Shown here piece after piece: positions 24,886 to 55,739 of a DNA stretch of 64,000 bases. The stretch comes from Odontesthes bonariensis (taxonomy: Eukaryota > Chordata > Actinopteri > Atheriniformes > Atherinopsidae): contig NC_134524.1 of assembly GCF_027942865.1 (NCBI RefSeq), forward strand, positions 24,893,536 to 24,957,535. The letters run 5' to 3'. The notes beneath the pieces were generated by a model. That model was not told the origin of the DNA. It searched no databases and saw nothing but the letters and a program-made list of their open reading frames with translations. Both the position numbers and the translations under genes were made by a program. How positions within the stretch are numbered: position 1 is the stretch's first letter; each line of letters opens with the position of its first letter.

Positions 24886-25907
24886 TTATTTTCGACACTT
24901 TAACGCCATGTATAAGTATCCTCCGACTCCAACTCCGGCGATCAGCAAGACACAGAAAACCACGAGTGGAATGAGTCCGTTCCAACGGGATAAGGAATCT
25001 AACAAGACGACAAAGAATAAAACAAAATAATTAGGTCTGCTGTAAGTGGAATATTACAGTCCCACAACTTTAATGGGATTCAAGGGCAAGTGTGACAAAA
25101 ATACAGGCACTGGCACAAACTTCCAAAGCAGGGTATCAGTGGTTTGACTGGGTTACATACAGTATGTGGGAGAGAGAGCTTACATCAGCAGTACGTTGCA
25201 ATTCCTGTAACCGAGGCCACTGTCAGTAAGATACAATTACACTGCACTTTATTTCTATCTTATGTTAACATTGGGTGAAAACAGAACAGCAATGACAATA
25301 AAAAAGGGTTGACGGTAATGTTCTAACAACTTGGGCTATGTTTCCTCACCGTTAACATCCGTCCCTTCTGCTGGATCAGGAGTTTGGAGATTGTCAGAAC
25401 GGAGTGGCGTCTCCGTCGTCCCACTTTTAGCTGAGTTAGGGTCCGGGATAACAGAGCGTTTTAATCATTTAACCCAGTCAGAGGGGGCACTCATTATACA
25501 GACCACAAGCAGCAATCAGTTGAACTCACCGACGGTTAGATGAACAATCGAAGACCGTGTTCTGCCCTTCAACTTTGGGATGAAACATTTGTATCGGCCT
25601 TCATCTGCGGCCGTCACGTTTGTTATTTTCAGCGCTACGTTGCCTTGCGTCATGCCATCTGCGGACAGCGTCGTCCTCCCGATGTACGAGGGGATCTTCA
25701 TGTCCAGGACTTCGCGATTGTGCCTGTAAAGGTGTACGTAGACAACTCTGCCCGGCCGATCGTTGGGGTCGGGCCTCAGGTCGGGCTTTGACCACTCCAC
25801 CGTCAGGTCCACCGTGTTAAACGTAGGCTCCACATGACACGGAAGGATGACATCATCTCCAGGAGAAGCCACAACTGGCCGAAGCGGTCCAATCACCTGA
25901 TACTGAC
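24886..25907 (-). CDS. Butyrophilin/MOG-like IgV membrane protein (three 3' exons)
   Basis: Minus-strand exons are IgV 25907-25530 (378 nt), stalk 25430-25350 (81 nt) and membrane/tail 24998-24886 with stop TAA at 24888-24886. All joints are phase 1 with GT-AG. The IgV exon reads GQYQVIGPLRPVVASPGDDV, the first Cys in ILPCHVEP, WSKPDLRP, REVLDMKIPSYIGRTTL, and DEGRYKCFIPKL with the second Cys. These are standard butyrophilin/MOG-type landmarks. The stalk is Thr/Pro/Asp-rich. The last exon is WNGLIPLVVFCVLLIAGVGV, a membrane span, then a short basic tail ending KCRK. There is no B30.2/SPRY domain. The signal-peptide exon must lie above 25907 and was not found, so the 5' end is incomplete. It is probably a cell-surface co-signalling-type molecule. 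Confidence 0.8.
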
Positions 25908-43180: not shown

Positions 43181-43189
43181 ACACTAATC

Positions 43190-43447
43190 ACATACAAGAT
43201 GATAGTTTTCAGTTCAAATAATTTATTTATACAAACTTGCAAAGCACACGCTGTCTTCAAACAGTCAACACAAAATAGTATTTAAAAAAAAAATACTTAT
43301 AACCACAAACACCTTTAGTCGTCGCTGTTCAGATCCGAGCAAAGCACCGATGTTGTCGGTGCCATGCAACACAGGACGATTTCCCCTCAAGGGATGTTAC
43401 TTACAGGTGTAATTGTTGCAAAATGATTCAAAAGGTGTCGGCATTGA
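43190..43447 (+). pseudogene. RPA-like gene fragment (zinc-ribbon segment), plus strand
   Basis: The sequence reads QIRAKHRCCRCHATQDDFPS, RDVTYRCNCCKMIQKVSA and then ends. It is the zinc-ribbon segment of the RPA-like gene whose intact copy is at 48044-49909. It is preceded by 'cacatacaagatgatagttt', which also borders other copies, so the fragment was joined to a 3'-flank piece. It is nearly identical to the start of the fragment at 54236. Confidence 0.75.
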
Positions 43448-43910
43448 TAAAGAAGTCATTTTAATTTCAACTGAAAACTATCATCTTGTATGTGATTCTT
43501 GTTATGGGTTTTCAATCTAATCTTGTCCACATAACCTGATTCTAAGGTTTTGATGGTAAAGTAGTTTGAAGGCAAAGGGTATTGAAGTAAGCTACACTAT
43601 GGTAGGCTGTGAGTCTTTACAAGACTTTCAGCAAGGTTCTGTTAATGTTACAATGTTAATGTTAAAGCGAGTCGTCTTGGTGGACTTGTTGCTGCACGCT
43701 TTGTGTCTGTCAGGCCTTTTTTTTTTTTTTAAATACTATTTTGTGTTGACCGTTTTTAAAAAGGTGTGTACATTGCAAGTTTGTGAATAAATTTTTTCAA
43801 ATAAAAACTATCATCTTGTATGTGATTCTTAATGGGTTCAATGTAATCTTTACCATTTTTGGTATTCTGATCACCCTGAACTGGGTTCTGTATGGAAACT
43901 ACAATTACAC
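43448..43910 (+). repeat. RPA-gene 3' flank, left member of an inverted pair
   Basis: This segment ('aactatcatcttgtatgtga', 'taacctgattctaaggtttt', 'gtagtttgaaggcaaagggt') is the reverse complement of 53690-54125 and resembles the plus-strand 3' flank of the intact gene at 50070-50245. A 40-bp scrap of the gene's C-terminal coding region ('cttgttgctgcacgcttt') is embedded at about 43680-43717. Confidence 0.8.
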
Positions 43911-44869
43911 CTGTAAGTCACATTCCTTGAGGGGAAGTCGTCCTTTGTTGCATGGCACCGATGACATCGGTGCTTTGCTCGGATCTGAACAGCGATGACT
44001 TCCCCTTGGAAGTTCACGTCGTCGGGTGTCAGCAGCTGCTGCAGATTCTGCGGCTCGTTCACGTTCTGGATTTCCTTTATGATGGAGGACGGAGGGGTGG
44101 TCAGTGTGACACGGCTGCTGAAGCAGCGAGTCGCCAGGTTGGTCACCTGGTAACTCTTACCCAAATGTACCAACTCAATTAGTCCTTCCCACACCGTCGG
44201 TTTGGCCCGTTGGGTCGCACACCTCCAGCTCCCGCTCACCACCTTTTATTTTGACGTTTTTTGGATGTGCCAACGTCCGGAAGGATTTTGACCTCTACAA
44301 CGTCGCTCTATAAAAAACAACAAAGCAAACCAAATAAGCACAACTTTGGCCTAAAGCTCTTAGTCTGAGCCAGTAAGTGTTGATTTTGCGTGACTACTGC
44401 ACTTACTTTCTGTTTTTTCCCGCAAGCCAACACCTCAGCAAGTGTTGAGACTTTGCTGTGACGCTGCCTTCAGGGAAATGCAGCTTCAACCACCGTGTGA
44501 CTGCTGCTCTCAGAATAAATGATGTCGAATCCATTGGTCAGATTGGCCTATGTAGAGAAACAATTAGATTAACATTCATGTCACTAAAAACAAAATTTAA
44601 AAAAAAATAAATAAACCCTTGCCAAAACACTTACCCATGCTTTTACGCACAGACGTAAACCTCAAACACGTCTTAACCAACGACGCTCGAATGAAGTCGT
44701 CCCGTTTATCCAACTTGAAGCATACGAAGTGGTGGTACACCTGCCCAGATTGCATTGTGGCAGTGAACTACTGGGTATTCTTTTTGAGATTGAGTGACGA
44801 AACATCATGCATGTACCCAATGATATCTTCCTGGATTTCGAGCTTTGGCTTTTTTCTTGGCGTTGTCAT
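43905..44869 (-). pseudogene. RPA-like gene copy M1 (N-terminal part), minus strand
   Basis: Exon 1 (44869-44635) starts MTTPRKKPKLEIQEDIIGYM. It has a TAG stop where the sister copies have Tyr in QYFT. Exon 2 (about 44560 downward) lacks two bases in the QSDPN codons and has TGA in place of the Trp of FPWR. Exon 3 and its continuation remain readable as TVWEGLIELVHLGKSYQVTN, then HRCHRCHATKDDFPSR and YRCNC, after which the C-terminal half is absent. Several independent lesions make it a pseudogene. It lies head-to-head with the intact copy to its right. Confidence 0.85.
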
Positions 44870-45133
44870 GTCCCTTCTTAGCTTGAATTATAAAGGAAAT
44901 CAGGTTTAAATGTACATAATAAAGAAACAAAATTCCATGTGAATGAACAAAGAAGCTCTTACCTGCACTGCAGCCACATGTAAAGGTGAAAAAGGAATGT
45001 GTGCAGGGTAGTGCAGTCTTTAAATAAGGAGTTAACAGGTGAACTCAATTGGGTAAGTCAGGGAGCAATTAGCAATCGGAAGACATGTAGCCAAGGTGTT
45101 TTAAATTAAGAAGTAAGGACAACCTACCCAAGA

Positions 45134-46790
45134 GCTTATGTTTAAGGAACATATTCAGAAAATGATGGAAAAATGCAAAAAAGGTATAAACGTCCTGAAA
45201 TGTTTAGCAGGGTACAACTGGGGAGCTTCAGGAACGTCCCTTAAAAGAATTTACATCGCCTTGATTAAGTCAGTGTTTGATTATGGATGTATTGTATACA
45301 GATCAACATCAAAGACACAACTCAAAGAAATTGACAAAATGCAGGTGAAATGTATGAGAATATGTTGTGGGGCATTCAGAACCTCTCCTGTACCAGCGCT
45401 GCAAGTAGAGACAGGAGAAATGCCATTAAACCTCAGGCGCCTGAAATTGAGCATGGCTTATTGGGTCAATTTAAAAGGACATAGTGCATCACATCCTACT
45501 AAGGAAGTCCTTAATGACTGCTGGGAATATGGGAGAACTAAGATATGTAGCTTTGGCTGGGATGCTAACAGATTAGCAAGTCAGATGGAAATAGAGGATT
45601 TACCTTGTAGCAAGACTTTGCCTCTGGCAACAACCCCACCCTGGTTGTTTTGTTCCCCTAGAGTAATCATAGAAACTAAAGACAAGGTAGGGCAGTACCT
45701 AGAGTATAGTTGCTGTGATTCAGCAAAAATCTATACAGACGCATCCAAGGATTCTGAGGGGAAGACCGGAATTGGGGTGTATATTCCTGAGTATGAAATA
45801 AAAATCAAAAAACGAACAACTGATCATTTATCCATTTTTTCTGCCGAGATGGCAGCAATTATCATTGCATTACAATGGTTAGAAGAGGCTAGGCTCCCTA
45901 ACACTGTTATTTGCTCTGACTCTATGTCGTCACTCACAGCTATTCAAAATGGTGATTCAACATGCAGACAGGATCTATTGAATGAAGTTTATCAAATCAT
46001 GTTTACAATTAAAAAACAAGGAAGGACAGTGCAGTTTGTGTGGGTTCCCGCACATAAAGGTGTAGAAGGGAATGAGAAAGCAGACAAGCTTGCAAAAGAG
46101 GCAACAAAAGAAGAGGAGGTTCAAGTAAATATTCCACTCTGTAAGTCAGAGATCAAGGTAATAATCAAACAAAAAGTTAATACAATGTGGCAGTCTGAGT
46201 GGGATAAGGAGAGGAAGGGCAGACATTTATATAATTTACAACAAGGAATATCAAGGAAAAGAAACAGTGAGATAAATAGACAGGAGGAGGTGTGGTTTTA
46301 CAGAATGCGAATAGGTCACACTGGTCTGAATAGTAATCTATTTATCATAAACATCCATCTGGAAATTGTGAGTTATGTGGAGTCAGAGAGGACGTAGAAC
46401 ATGTTCTGTTAAGATGTGAAAGGTTCTTGAGTCAAAGAGAAAAACTGAAAAGGGCAGTTAGTGCAGTAAAGAAGGTTTTCTCCTTGGAAACATTATTGGG
46501 TGAGCCCAGGTCAGGAAGTATCACGAGTTCCATGATATCCTTTATCAAAGAGACACAGTTAGCAAACAGGATTTAGAATTATAGTTTTGTTTTGATTATT
46601 TTATTTTATTTTATTTATTTATTTATTTGGTTTCTTATATATTATTTTATTTTATTATTTTTTTTTAGTATTTATTTATTTTATTAAGTTTTCTTTGAAT
46701 TACCCAATGAACTGCACCTCAGTCCAGTAGATGGCGGTAATACACCTAGTATGTAAACTGCCATAAAACATAACAGAAGAAGAAGAAGAG
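45134..46790 (+). mobile_element. 5'-truncated LINE with RNase H domain
   Basis: A perfect 11-bp duplication CCTACCCAAGA (45123-45133 and 46791-46801) flanks it. The frame at 45138-46397 holds the reverse transcriptase thumb (LKRIYIALIKSVFDYGCIVY), then an RNase H domain with IYTDAS, SAEMAA, CSDSMSS and NEKADK supplying the D-E-D-D set. Near 46340 the frame shifts; the neighbouring frame continues HPSGNCELCGVREDVEHVLL, then RCERF, the Cys-rich LINE end, to a stop at about 46575. The 3' UTR is AT-rich and ends 'ccagtagatggcggtaatac' and (GAA)n. RNase H plus this 3' end suggests an I/Nimb-type LINE. It split the shared promoter region between the M1 and intact RPA-like copies. Confidence 0.88.
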
Positions 46791-48043: not shown

Positions 48044-49909
48044 ATGGCAACGCCAAGCAAAAAACTTAAGCTCGCAAACGAAGACCACATCATTGGTTAT
48101 CTTCAACATGTGTCATCAATTCAAATTTCCAAGAAGAACCACCAATATTTTACAGGGAAACTGCAATGTGGGCAGGTGTACCACCACTTTGTGTGTTTCA
48201 AACTAAGTATTAGGGAGGACTTCAGTCGAGCCTCATTGGCAAAAACCTGTTTAAGGTTCACATCTGTGCGTAAAACCATAAGTAAGTGTTTTGGCAAGGT
48301 TTATTTTTTTTAATTGTTTTTAGCGACATAAAGATAAATCTAATATTTTCTCTACATAGGCCAAACTGACCCCGACAGTTTTGATGTCATGTATACTGAC
48401 AGCAGCAGTCATACTGTTGTTGAAGCTCCCTTTCCGTGGCGGCAGTTCAAGACCAAGGTGTCCACACTGGCTGAGGTTTTGGCTTTTGGCAAAAACCAAG
48501 TGGTAAGTGAAGCAGTCACGCAAAAGAAACACTTACTGGCTCAGACTAAGAGGTTTAGGCCAATGTTGTGCTTATTTGGTTTGCTTTTTTTTTTCTTTTT
48601 TTTACAGGTAGATGTTGTGGAGGTAAAAGTCCTGCCACAAGCTGGCGTTTCCAAAAATGTCACAATCAACGATGTGGAGCGGGAGCTGCAGGAGTATGAA
48701 GTGTGTGACCCAACAGGCCAAACCTCATTGACCGTATGGGAAGGACTGATTCAATCAGTACAATTAGGAAGAAGTTACCAGGTAATAGGGGTGGGACGGT
48801 ATGCTTTTGTCACGATTTGATTTGTATCATGATTCTTGATAATTGCGATTCGATATAATCAGTAATTGCAATTTTCTTCCTCCTTTAAAAAAACAAACAT
48901 GTTGAATCATACACTTCTAGAATGAATGTCGTTCCCATAAATAATGCACATCAGTCTGTCTGTCAGTCCAGCAGCTGGCATTTATTTCAACTGAGACAAA
49001 AAGAGGCATTTTTTAAAGTTTACAGTTACAAAATTAATTGAAATGTCCACACAGCACAAATGTGGGCTAGTTTTAACATAACTTAATGTGATGAAGTGAT
49101 GAAGTTTATCTGGACATGGATATGATGTAATATAATTGATAAAGCTTCCCTTGGCGTTGCAAATGTGTTTAGCATAAACGGTATTCAGATTACAATTCTG
49201 CTGCCATAATGCTGGACAGGACAAGGGTAAAGAAATAAAAAATATCGATTCAGGGGAGAAAAATTGCTTTTGAAAATCACGATATGTACATGAATTTCTT
49301 TTTTTCGCCCACCCCTACCAGGTAACGAACCTAAGAACACGCTGCTTTGCCACCCGGACCACACTCACCACCACTCTGTCCTCAAAGATTGAAGCCATTG
49401 CGGCTGTGAAGGAGCCGGCGACTCTGCAGCAGCTGACAACACCTGACGACGTGAACTTTGAAGGGGAAGTCGTCGCTATTCAAGTACGTGCTAAGCACCG
49501 ATGCCGCCGGTGCCATGCGCCACAGGACGACTTCCCCTCAAAGAGTACCATTTACCGCTGTACAGGATGTCATATGATGCAGAAGGTTTCGGCATATCCA
49601 GTCACTCATAGCGGTACACTAGAGATGCGTAGTAAGAAGGGGGACTCCTGCACCTTCCAGCTGTCGAACGGATCCATCAATGGATTTGTTGCACAACGCT
49701 TTGGGTCTATGACGGGCCTTGACATGGAGAAAATAGAGGAGGCACTCTTGTGTGCTGAAGAGGTACACGTCCGGGCAAATCAAAACGGCATGGCCCTTTC
49801 GCTGTCCCTTGTTCATAAAGAGCCAGATGTTAGTGGTCAAACTAAGCCATTGGAGGGCACATCAGCAGATATTGAAATTGCCATGTTTGAGAGGTCATTT
49901 GACCAATGA
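48044..49909 (+). CDS. RPA-like single-strand-DNA-binding (OB-fold/zinc-ribbon) protein, intact copy, 380 aa
   Basis: Exons are 48044-48281, 48360-48502, 48608-48781 and 49322-49909, 1,143 nt with stop TGA. The third intron is a transposon (see 48786-49317). The protein starts MATPSKKLKLANEDHIIGYL. Two beta-rich segments (residues about 1-127 and 128-240) look like consecutive OB folds; the second contains CDPTGQTSLTVWEGLIQSV, the 'x-D-x-T-G-x-x-x-x-x-x-W' style of RPA70 OB domains. Residues 246-268 carry C-x2-C (CRRC) and C-x2-C (CTGC), comparable to the zinc ribbon of RPA70 domain C. The C-terminus is acidic (DIEIAMFERSFDQ). The likely role is binding ssDNA. It is the only copy in the cluster without lesions. 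It could be a transposon-encoded RPA as in some Helitrons, or a host-like multigene family. Confidence 0.75.
48786..49317. mobile_element. hAT-like insertion acting as an intron
   Basis: The ends are TAGGGGTGGG (48786-48795) and CCCACCCCTA (49308-49317). The 8-bp target duplication is CCAGGTAA (48778-48785 and 49318-49325). There is no coding capacity. Both pseudogene copies (M1, M2) read straight through this point as SYQVTN without interruption, so the element inserted into an exon. The left duplication provides CAG|GTAA as donor. The T-rich right end plus 'cccctaccag' provides the acceptor, giving a 540-nt intron (48782-49321). Confidence 0.88.
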
Positions 49910-51650
49910 ATGACAATGACTAATTTTTGTTGAAGTATTTTATTTGAAGAAGCAGTTGTATTTCACGCTATTTTTATTTTGTTGTTTTTTTTTTTTTTTT
50001 TAAATACTATTTTTTGTTGACTAATTGACGGCGTGAACACTTTAAGTTTGTACATTTTTTTTTCAACTGAAAACTATCATCTTGTATATGATGTGGGTTT
50101 TCAATCTAATCTTGTCCACATAACCTGATTCTAAGGTTTTGATGGTAAAGTAGTTTGAAGGCAAAGGGTATTGAAGTAAGCTACACTATGGTAGGCTGTG
50201 AGTCTTTACAAGACTTTCAGCAAGGTTCTGTTAATGTTACAATGTGCCTAGTAAGTGTTCAACAAATGTGTTGCTCATGATTTGGCAAAATGCAGGCCAA
50301 CAGTCTTTGTAGGATGCAAGAGTCACTGTCTCAGCATACTTGTCATATTGTTGGAATATCTTTTATTTTTGGTTTTTGCCTGACTTTTTAGCATGTTGAA
50401 TTTGCTTGTTAAGTTCAGTACCTCTGAGAAATTACTTGTCTTTTTGAATGGAGTGTGCTGAAATTGCTATCAAGCTTTGTAATGTGCTACTGTGTCTTGT
50501 ATCAGACAGACTTGACTTTTCATTTAAAGTAATAGTCCAGTCTTAATGAAATTTCCTGTGATCATCTTAATAAATGGCTGTTTGACTTTTTCCAATCTGA
50601 AAACTTGTGCTGGTTGTCTCAACTCCCCATTTCAGGATAATTGATTCCGTGGCTCTTTGAAGCAGTAATATCCAATACTAGTGACAGGTCCGTCATGACA
50701 CGTGTCATTCAAAGAGCAAAACCCTGTCGTTCACGCAGAGCTATAGAGTAAATACTGTTGCGACACGCTTTGTCTCAGCTAGGGCTGTCACGTGGTTCAT
50801 GTAAGCCTCAATAGTTGTAAACATCACAGTGCTGTCAGTCAGTTTGAAAGGGACGGAGCACAAAAACGCTAACTTTGACATTTACGACGCAATTTTCGGT
50901 AAATATTGATCACTTCACTGACAATGTATTTTATCAACGTTTATCTTTCTTTGGAGCGGCAGAGACACATTTATCACCGTTTTAAATCGTAGAGGGTGCC
51001 CCTGCATGCTAGCAGAGGACAGGTAGGCTATACCTTGTCCTCTATACTTAAACATGCCAGTGAAGTTTACCTTCAGATCTACATCCTTCAACAGAGCATG
51101 ATATTGCCATCTGTTCCCAGGACCTACTCCTGTTGTCCCAAACACTCAATCTGTAGAAGATGTCATTCAGTCTGTCTGTTCTCTGGTGTCAGATGGAAAA
51201 TAAGTCAATGGCTGGGCTGAATAAATTAATTAAAGAAAAAAAAAAAGCTTTAAATGACTTGGAGGGAAATATGCTGTCGATGCTTTGAGTGAGACGGGAT
51301 GAATTGTTTTCTGTAAAAGACCTAATTCTGTATTTGTCATGTGAACTGAATATATGCACCTGTAACCCTGTTTATTGTGCTTCAAGTGCCAACTACTGTA
51401 AAATGAAATAAAAAGATTAATCTAAACTTTTTTCTGATTAAAACTATATTGATGACAAGTGTGTCAAATGTACAAAAATAGATTTAAACTTAACATATTT
51501 TAAAATGTCATCAAATGTAAAACAAGCCTTGATAAAGAAGTCATTTTACTGCTGTTGGGTAGCTTAATCTGCAACAATGAACTGTATTTGATTACATTTA
51601 AGGGTTTAGATATTGTAGAAATGTGCTGAAGTCTTGAACTGAGGGTTGAT
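49910..51650. other. 3' flank of the intact RPA-like gene
   Basis: It contains the shared 3'-flank block (50070-50245) and an AATAAA at about 50570 that could be the polyadenylation signal. No further gene is recognised. Confidence 0.45.
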
Positions 51651-53689: not shown

Positions 53690-54125
53690 GTTTCCATACA
53701 GAACCCAGTTCAGGGTGATCAGAATACCAAAAATGGTAAAGATTACATTGAAAACCCATTAAGAATCACATACAAGATGATAGTTTTTATTTGAAAAAAT
53801 TTATTCACAAACTTGCAATGTACACACCTTTTTAAAAACAGTCAACACAAAATAGTATTTAAAAAAAAAAAAAAAAAAAGGCCTGACAGACACAAAGCGT
53901 GCAGCAACAAGTCCACCAAGACAACTCGCTGTAACATTAACATTGTAACATTAACAGAACCTTGCTGAAAGTCTTGTAAAGACTCACAGCCTACCATAGT
54001 GTAGCTTACTTCAATACCCTTTGCCTTCAAACTACTTTACCATCAAAACCTTAGAATCAGGTTATGTGGACAAGATTAGATTGAAAACCCATAACAAGAA
54101 TCACATACAAGATGATAGTTTTCAG
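53690..54125 (-). repeat. RPA-gene 3' flank, right member of an inverted pair
   Basis: It is the reverse complement of 43448-43910 over nearly its full length, including the embedded coding scrap and the (T)n tract next to it, here an A-run at 53860-53880. Confidence 0.85.
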
Positions 54126-54235
54126 TTGAAATTATTTATACAAACTTGCAAAGCACACGCTGTCTTCAAACAGTCAACACAAAATAGTATTTAAAAAAAA
54201 AAAATACTTCTAACCACAAACCTTTAGTCGTCGCT

Positions 54236-54688
54236 GTTCAGATCTGAGCAAAGCACCGATGTTGTCGGTGCCATGCAACACAGGACGATTTCCCCTCAAG
54301 GGATGTTACTTACAGGTGTAATTGTTGCAAAATGATTCAAAAGGTGTCGGCATACCCTGTCATCTATAGTGGAACACTTGAAATGCACACAAAGCAGGGG
54401 GAAGACTGCACCTTACTTACAAATGCATGCGTTGGTCGACTTGTTGCTGCACGCTTTGGGTCTGTGACAGGCCTGCAAATGGAGGACGTAGAAGAGGCCC
54501 TCTTGTGTGCAGAAGGAGTCCATGTCCAGGCCAATTCTAATGGCATGGCGCTTTCACTGTCCCTGGCGAAAGCAGATGTTGCAAATCTGGAGGTTACCTC
54601 TGACACCGAGCCATCTGAGGGCACATCACTTGTGCACTCAGAAATTGAACAAGAAATATTAGCAGAGTGTTGGTTTGGAAGAATTTAG
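54236..54688 (+). pseudogene. RPA-like gene, C-terminal half, plus strand
   Basis: It reads CAG ATC TGA (in-frame stop where M1 has CGA), then AKHRCCRCHATQDDFPS, YRCNCCKMIQKVSAYPV, YSGTLEMHTKQGEDCTLLTN, GRLVAARFGSVTGLQMEDVE, EALLCAEGVHVQ and a Glu-rich end ending in TAG. It corresponds to residues about 239-380 of the intact copy. Its N-terminal half lies next to it on the opposite strand, so the gene was split by an inversion. The domain itself is otherwise open. Confidence 0.82.
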
Positions 54689-54760
54689 TGACGTGAGTAA
54701 AAGTTTTGTTTAAGTGTTTGCTTTTAACAGCAGTTGTATTTCAAGCTATTTAAAAAAAAA

Positions 54761-55625
54761 CTTCCCCTTCGAAGTTCACGTCGTCGGGTGTCAGCAGCTG
54801 CTGCAGATTCTGCGGCTCCTTCACGTTCTGGATTTCCTTTATGATGGAGGACGGAGGGTGTGACACGGCTGCTGAAACAGCGAGTCGCCAGGTTGGTCAC
54901 CTGGTAACTCTTACCCAAATGTACCAACTCAATTAGTCCTTCCCACACCGTCAGTGTGGTTTGGCCCGTTGGGTCGCACACCTCCAGCTCCCGCAGCACT
55001 ACACCTTTTATTTTGGATGTGCCAACGTCAGGAAGGATTTTTACCTCTACAACATCCACCTGTTTAAAAAAAAAAAAAAAAAAAAAAAAGCGCAAACCAA
55101 ATAAGCACAACTTTGGCATAAACCTAATAGTTTGAGCCAGTAAGTGTTGCTTTTGCGTGACTGCTGCACTTACTTTTTGGCATTTCCCACGAGCCAACAC
55201 CTCAGTAAGTGTGGACACCTTGCTTTTACGCTGCCTCCATGGAAATGCAGCTTCAACCATCGTGTGACCGCTGCTCTCAGAATAAATGATGTCGAATCCA
55301 TTGGGGTCAGATTGGCCTATGTAGAGAAACAATTAGATTAACATTCATGTTGCTAAAAACAATTTAAAAAAAAAGAACCTTCCCAAAACACTTACCCATG
55401 CTTTTACGCACAGACGTAAACCTCAAACACGTCTTAGCCAACGACGTTCGACTGAAGTCCTCCCGTTTATCCAACTTGAAGCATACGAAGTGGTGGTACA
55501 CCTGCCCAGATTCCACTGTGGCAGTGAAATACTGGGTATTCTTTTTGGATATTTTCAGTGAAGAAACATCATGGACGTAACCGATGATTTCTTCCTGGAT
55601 TTCGATCTTGGGTTGGCGTTGCCAT
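54761..55625 (-). pseudogene. RPA-like gene copy M2, N-terminal half, minus strand
   Basis: Exon 1 is 55625-55396, exon 2 55316-55174 (143 nt, same length as in the intact copy) and exon 3 from 55060 downward. Readable segments are EEIIGYVHDVSSL, QSDPNGFDIIYSESSGHT, VDVVEVKILPDVGTSKIK and TVWEGLIELVHLGKSYQVTN. The start region lacks about 11 bases and is out of frame. An 8-bp deletion after CFSSRVT shifts the frame again. The sequence breaks at GEV, after which DNA on the other side carries the C-terminal half in opposite orientation. Confidence 0.85.
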
Positions 55626-55739
55626 GTCCTTTTTTAGCTTTACCTTAAATTATAAAGGAAATCAGGTTTAAATGTACATAGAGAAACAAGATTCCATGTG
55701 AATGAACAAAGAAGCTCTTACCTGCACTGCAGCCACATG

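Follow-up and report, generated by a model that had tools for sequence, protein, structure and literature searches.

In maize, the hAT element Ds in shrunken2 (Giroux et al., 1994) is reportedly flanked by an 8-bp duplication and removed precisely by splicing. The locus described here likewise carries a hAT element with an 8-bp duplication, but removal by splicing, precise in Ds, is predicted here. Ds represents a modern mutant allele with spliced RNA, whereas the present insertion is natural, occurs in several gene copies and is known from DNA.

Transposon insertion at AGGT is presented as an intron-gain mechanism in a 2012 review (PMC3443670), whose table covers transposon events in Oryza, Drosophila, Oikopleura and Zea and, within that table, no vertebrate; the maize Ds case is among its references. 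As in this model, AGGT is duplicated at our locus, so that the target provides the two splice sites and the coding sequence stays as it was; unlike the cases tabulated there, several descendant copies and empty relatives are found within one genome. In teleosts, intron 3 of notothenioid slc26a2 was made by NTE-1, with gt-ag within putative repeats, according to a 2025 paper (PMC12357937). As here, an element with inverted ends gave a teleost gene an additional intron; unlike here, that element has 4-nt direct repeats and tgt..aca ends, which are not of hAT type, and lies in an ordinary host gene whose intron was later enlarged by a second element. Introners, as outlined in PMC9860276, are also DNA elements that serve as introns, with some families drawing both splice sites from the target, but they form families that seed many introns, whereas we observe one exonic event and no excess of AGGT. 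According to the same survey, species whose populations are expected to be small, among them vertebrates, lack such a pattern (PMC9860276). Elsewhere, repetitive elements are described in novel introns of fish receptor genes (2011; PMC3151243), a serpin study reports none in novel introns (PMC2746811), and the design of a human intron-gain survey was not aimed at transposon origin (PMC12124190).

Judged by titles and abstract openings, we recognised no vertebrate intron made by a hAT element, which is weak evidence of priority with subscription journals mostly outside the coverage. The mechanism is already published (AGGT model, maize Ds, teleost slc26a2) and the present case is a new, well-resolved example of it. 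Vertebrate cases in which the parent transposon is visible along with the empty site, the duplicated target and the copies descended from the event appear to be rare, slc26a2 being the nearest in the literature searched. The case permits a before/after comparison within one genome; it also suggests that intron gain takes no more than an ordinary hAT, one without a preference for AGGT. Our reading, to which we give a probability of about 0.78, is that a hAT insertion in coding sequence became a spliceable intron and was then duplicated with the gene.

Anatomy of the insertion and its element family

The window, i.e., the whole 64,000-nt stretch analysed, contains the gene copy g48 at 48044–49909 on the plus strand and two paralogues, with the following features.

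48044..48281, plus strand: exon 1, with ATG at 48044, an open frame and the donor GTAAGT
48282..48359, plus strand: intron 1, common to relatives
48360..48502, plus strand: exon 2
48503..48607, plus strand: intron 2, common to relatives
48608..48781, plus strand: exon 3, final codons TAC CAG
48778..48785, unstranded: left target-site duplication CCAGGTAA, source of the donor GTAA
48782..49321, plus strand: intron 3, new, 540 nt, phase 0 (GTAA + element + CCAG), presumed to be removed
48786..49317, unstranded: hAT-type element, non-autonomous, 532 bp, with 8-bp target-site duplication, inverted ends and dispersed copies
48786..48795, unstranded: left inverted end TAGGGGTGGG
49277-49280: candidate branch point TCAC, read by eye
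49295..49317, plus strand: pyrimidine-rich stretch 5' of the acceptor
49308..49317, unstranded: right inverted end CCCACCCCTA, which belongs to the pyrimidine tract
49318..49325, unstranded: right target-site duplication CCAGGTAA, source of the acceptor CCAG; restores exon 4
49322..49909, plus strand: exon 4, stop at 49907-49909, with codon-patterned change after the insertion
43187..45021, minus strand: paralogue A, broken, empty site
53940..55724, minus strand: paralogue B, broken, empty site

The two 8-bp copies of CCAGGTAA that flank the element are identical, and the element's ends are complementary at 10/10 bp. TA closes both the exon sequence ahead of the left copy and the right inverted end, which lengthens the direct repeat to TACCAGGTAA. 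Intron 3 has the borders of a spliceosomal intron, with GT..AG (CAG/GTAATA ... CCCTACCAG/GTAACG), a pyrimidine tract and a restored frame all present. Joining the four exons, with three introns out, yields an open frame of 380 aa; with the element retained, the frame stops 12 codons on (SYQ-VIGVGRYAFVTI, then stop), so that translation of exon 4 requires removal of the element. The earlier note had proposed a 532-bp element between two perfect target copies in a coding exon, a 540-nt removal that restores the pre-insertion codons in frame, and splice sites both supplied by the target duplication: all three hold up.

In our reading, a non-autonomous hAT entered a coding stretch of an SSB/OB-fold-like gene at CCAGGTAA, and the 8-bp duplication set CAG/GTAA at the left edge and CCAG/GTAA at the right. 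Since the duplication supplies both sites, the spliceosome could excise the element together with one copy of the duplication, which brings the original codons back together. The T- and C-rich right end would act as polypyrimidine tract, a putative role already suggested in that note and in agreement with the pyrimidine-rich stretch that precedes the acceptor. The intron-bearing gene would later have been duplicated, giving at least five copies.

Splice sites were scored with a matrix of base frequencies. The intron 3 acceptor (6.06) is the best between the element and exon 4, above that of intron 1 (4.92) and far below that of intron 2 (15.3). The intron 3 donor (2.94) ranks second in the stretch from exon 3 to where the element ends, and is weaker than the gene's other donors (3.67 and 5.59). 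The weak +5 of this donor, T in place of G, would suit partial splicing, a weaker form of our reading that overlaps with it, in which the element leaves a fraction of the transcripts, enough for residual function. A maize Ds allele is said to behave in this way, with the element spliced from only a fraction of transcripts and residual function. We hold partial splicing to be possible but on the unlikely side, as the junctions are unchanged in 4/4 two-ended copies and the acceptor is strong for its stretch, although neither gauges efficiency. The insertion, its duplication, the empty relatives, the common inheritance, the unaltered junctions, the intact frame and the codon pattern of later changes in exon 4 are seen directly, whereas splicing of transcripts at these sites, and its efficiency, are what we infer from the sequence.

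The genome-wide comparison was made on the assembly from which the window comes (945 Mb in 187 contigs); its size and an immunoglobulin V-set ORF in the window fit a vertebrate, probably a teleost. The element belongs to a dispersed family with at least 52 matching stretches (40 of 1716 candidates scored), and an exact left end of 17 nt is present at 238 places in the assembly. Of 44 element loci, 37 are flanked by an 8-bp duplication that is perfect (31 loci) or has a single mismatch. Fewer than 37 of these duplications are independent, because the present insertion accounts for four of the 44 loci, three were chosen for AGGT, and two further locus pairs share a duplication sequence. In these pairs, L030/L031 with CTACATTT and L029/L032 with CTGACTAC, the common duplication sequence may reflect segmental copying of a single insertion. 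Across 37 copies, the inverted ends show at most two mismatches over both ends, in a search that admitted up to two per end. The 8-bp duplications and the short inverted ends bear out the hAT type assigned earlier. hAT elements prefer targets of the nTnnnnAn type; the target sites of 37 copies have T at position 2 in 28 and A at position 7 in 24, the family motif being close to nTAnnTAn, and CCAGGTAA matches nTnnnnAn at position 7 only. A non-autonomous hAT fits both the duplication length and the target motif. The hAT dimerisation domain has at least 150 matches (150 of 2305 candidates scored), but no match among these could be linked to the element's ends, and the exact left-end pattern, the one pattern searched, was absent from viral contigs.

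AGGT lies within 8 nt before the exact left end, in the sense direction, in 6 of the 238 occurrences, three of which are the present insertion in other carriers (C17, C16a and C16b, described below), the window copy differing by one base in the searched left end. As a random 8-mer holds AGGT about 2% of the time (5/256), AGGT is not in excess. The other three sites have perfect duplications, and open frames across the empty site span only 56, 75 and 80 codons. Among the four independent AGGT sites examined, the present insertion is the only exonic case; a few more may exist, the counts covering exact left ends in the sense direction. The Introner-type label of the earlier note has to be dropped, since AGGT is not enriched before the exact left end and only one exonic event is seen; membership of an Introner family is rejected, and the element is best described as an ordinary hAT.

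Carriers, codon pattern and relatives

Five gene copies in the assembly carry the insertion, g48 and the following four.

C17, ~23.6-25.5 kb: same element, same codon
C16a, 38.345-38.347 Mb, minus strand: same element, same codon
C16b, 38.235-38.238 Mb: same element, same codon
C16c, 38.655 Mb: same element, same codon; left part of the element lost

The same 8-bp duplication flanks the element in C17, C16a and C16b, which, with the duplications at 37 of 44 element loci, goes beyond chance. The left junction is identical in 4/4 carriers that keep it and the right junction in 5/5, and the element interior has many indels among carriers. The frame is intact in g48 only. Exon 4 has lost 4 nt in C17 and, by a common deletion, 2 nt in the C16 copies, which are damaged elsewhere too; in C16b, exon 2 is interrupted by an insertion (L062), which by eye we take to resemble a tRNA-derived SINE. 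As a counterpoint to our reading, four of the five carriers are broken, so that only one intact product depends on splicing.

A branch codon model was applied to exon 4 of 11 of 13 copies (e_C18 and e_C1 were omitted as near-duplicates of e_C3), with gapped and stop codons treated as missing and the C16 copies fixed as one clade. On the two branches adjoining the carriers' ancestor, omega is 0.41 and omega = 1 is rejected (p = 0.0017); on the g48 tip, omega is 0.45 and omega = 1 is not rejected (p = 0.081); the joint test of these three branches, with omega of about 0.4, rejects omega = 1 (p = 0.0012). For exons 1–3 the values are 0.27 and 0.20. Against our reading, dead branches too have low values: in exon 4 their omega is 0.49, which does not differ from 1 (p = 0.165), and in exons 1–3 it is 0.41 (p = 0.026). 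Changes after the split of g48 and C17 were also counted by codon position (1/2/3), 10 ambiguous sites being dropped: on the g48 branch they fall as 8/7/24 over all exons (p = 0.0003) and 5/4/12 in exon 4 (p = 0.021), and on the branch of the broken C17 as 4/4/5 (p = 0.45), with no codon pattern. Stricter polarisation gives 4/6/15 for g48, 2/3/7 for exon 4 alone (p = 0.066), and 10/12/24 for exon 4 when g48 is pooled with the older branch (p = 0.006). Such a pattern is expected of translated DNA, and in exon 4 it therefore points to removal of the element; the apparent codon constraint after the insertion thus supports real splicing. Codon positions 1 and 2 have changed no more slowly than the insert, and it is therefore the codon pattern that carries the case, not a low rate of change.

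These substitutions in exon 4 speak against a reading in which the gene was merely disabled by the insertion, the open frames being undecayed leftovers and the splice-like junctions a by-product of an AGGT target. The g48 frame, free of stops and frameshifts although its element is 18 nt shorter than that of C17, also argues against it. Frameshifts or other damage in four of five carriers and the chance level of AGGT before the exact left end are on its side, and we judge it unlikely.

The exons of the family evolve fast. We compared window 48044–49909, C17, C16a–c, L049, L051, L052, L054, L056 and L057. Fixed differences between g48 plus C17 and the C16 copies amount to 41/294 at third, 22/308 at first and 20/310 at second positions, and to 55/532 in exon 4, against 6/460 in the element and 3/241 in introns 1 and 2 plus the 5' stretch. 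The element and the introns being similarly little diverged and exon 4 much more, the element has the history of an intron and not that of an exon. On the g48 branch, with 20 synonymous changes, third positions changed at 24/367 and first and second positions at 12/739, the element at 6/538, introns and 5' stretch at 2/299, and the first part of the 3' UTR, not fast, at 2/150; on the C17 branch, rates are alike across site classes. Coding branch lengths exceed non-coding ones 2- to 9-fold on the main clade-separating internal branches and 4-fold on g48, and are about equal to them on tips such as C17, C16a and e_C24b. In the live lineage, synonymous and third positions run about six times faster than the insert, the introns and neighbouring non-coding DNA. 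Fast exons are compatible with the main reading because the insert behaves like the introns; constraint consequently shows as codon pattern. CpG decay as their cause is unsupported, 12 of 79 polarised changes touching CG, and so is GC-biased conversion, the substitution spectrum being mixed. More speculatively, and rather doubtfully, a process confined to coding exons may act in this gene family, leaving introns untouched and exempting the hAT insert at once; selection for synonymous and protein change, or exon rewriting via an RNA intermediate, is an equally tentative candidate for it. If so, the evolutionary record would be a direct readout of the insert's splicing.

An element far less diverged than the exons, between g48/C17 and the C16 copies, could also mean that it entered one copy and spread to the others by gene conversion, the insertion being younger than the carriers' exon divergence. 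We find this quite improbable: introns 1 and 2 and the 5' stretch are equally little diverged, and the 51-nt stretch without fixed differences at the junction does not stand out, since the gene has two others of similar length (53 and 52 nt). A local conversion tract around the insert is not indicated by the lengths of such stretches. Spread by gene conversion would weaken the older-branch test and leave the g48 branch test unaffected.

Turning back to insertion followed by duplication with the gene, the site is empty in 8/8 relatives checked base by base, CCAGGTAA being present in three and CCAGGTGA in five, and none has an intron at this position. Splice sites derived from the duplication and an empty AGGT site in all eight relatives are what the AGGT model of intron gain describes. 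The contrary case named in the earlier note, a related copy with the intron and without the hAT, was sought and not found in these eight, and its statement that both sister copies in the window represent the empty-site state is correct: paralogues A and B lack the insertion and are damaged, A by stops and frameshifts, while pieces of exon 4 are inverted in each of the two. In the tree, all carriers, which share the insertion by inheritance, separate from all empty copies with a support of 100, the order of the C16 copies being weakly supported (39 and 56). A processed copy with a joined exon 3–4 junction would prove splicing; no same-lineage copy with this junction, empty or processed, occurs within three mismatches. 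An older intron into which the hAT landed, suggested by the gene's other introns being common to relatives, is rejected as most improbable, since 8/8 relatives lack an intron there and both intron ends lie within the 8-bp duplication.

The host gene and its repeat units

A Pfam search of the gene gave three weak matches, all below the cut-off, and a protein search with its product gave none at E <= 0.001 among 1698 candidates. A profile of the exon 3–4 proteins matches single-stranded DNA binding proteins (7wcg, E = 5e-5; SOSS B1 weaker), and the product is likely an OB-fold, SSB/RPA-like protein. Its AlphaFold model has a mean pLDDT of 36.8, too low for use.

The gene is multicopy, with 99 matching stretches in the assembly. 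Palindromic units of 7.3 kb on C18 and C3, 97–99% alike, hold it as divergent pairs, and 3.7-kb pieces on C1 are 96–99% alike. Because its copies lie in large repeat units, it is not an ordinary single-copy host gene. Much of window 32790-58452 aligns piecewise to 24.5 kb of C18 (12807000-12831500; L079, L050, L051, L078), a stretch that comprises ~1.07-kb tandem repeats, a palindromic SSB-like gene pair and shared right flanks; similar cores are also present on C3 and C1. The 3' flank at 50089-50245 is 99% identical to 43500-43656 and 53940-54096, the coding exons of those copies being only ~75% identical. An RNase H/reverse-transcriptase-like ORF of 419 aa lies between paralogue A and g48 (window 45138-46397), and an immunoglobulin V-set ORF, perhaps butyrophilin-like, occupies window 25519-25896 on the minus strand (Pfam V-set, E = 2.3e-10).
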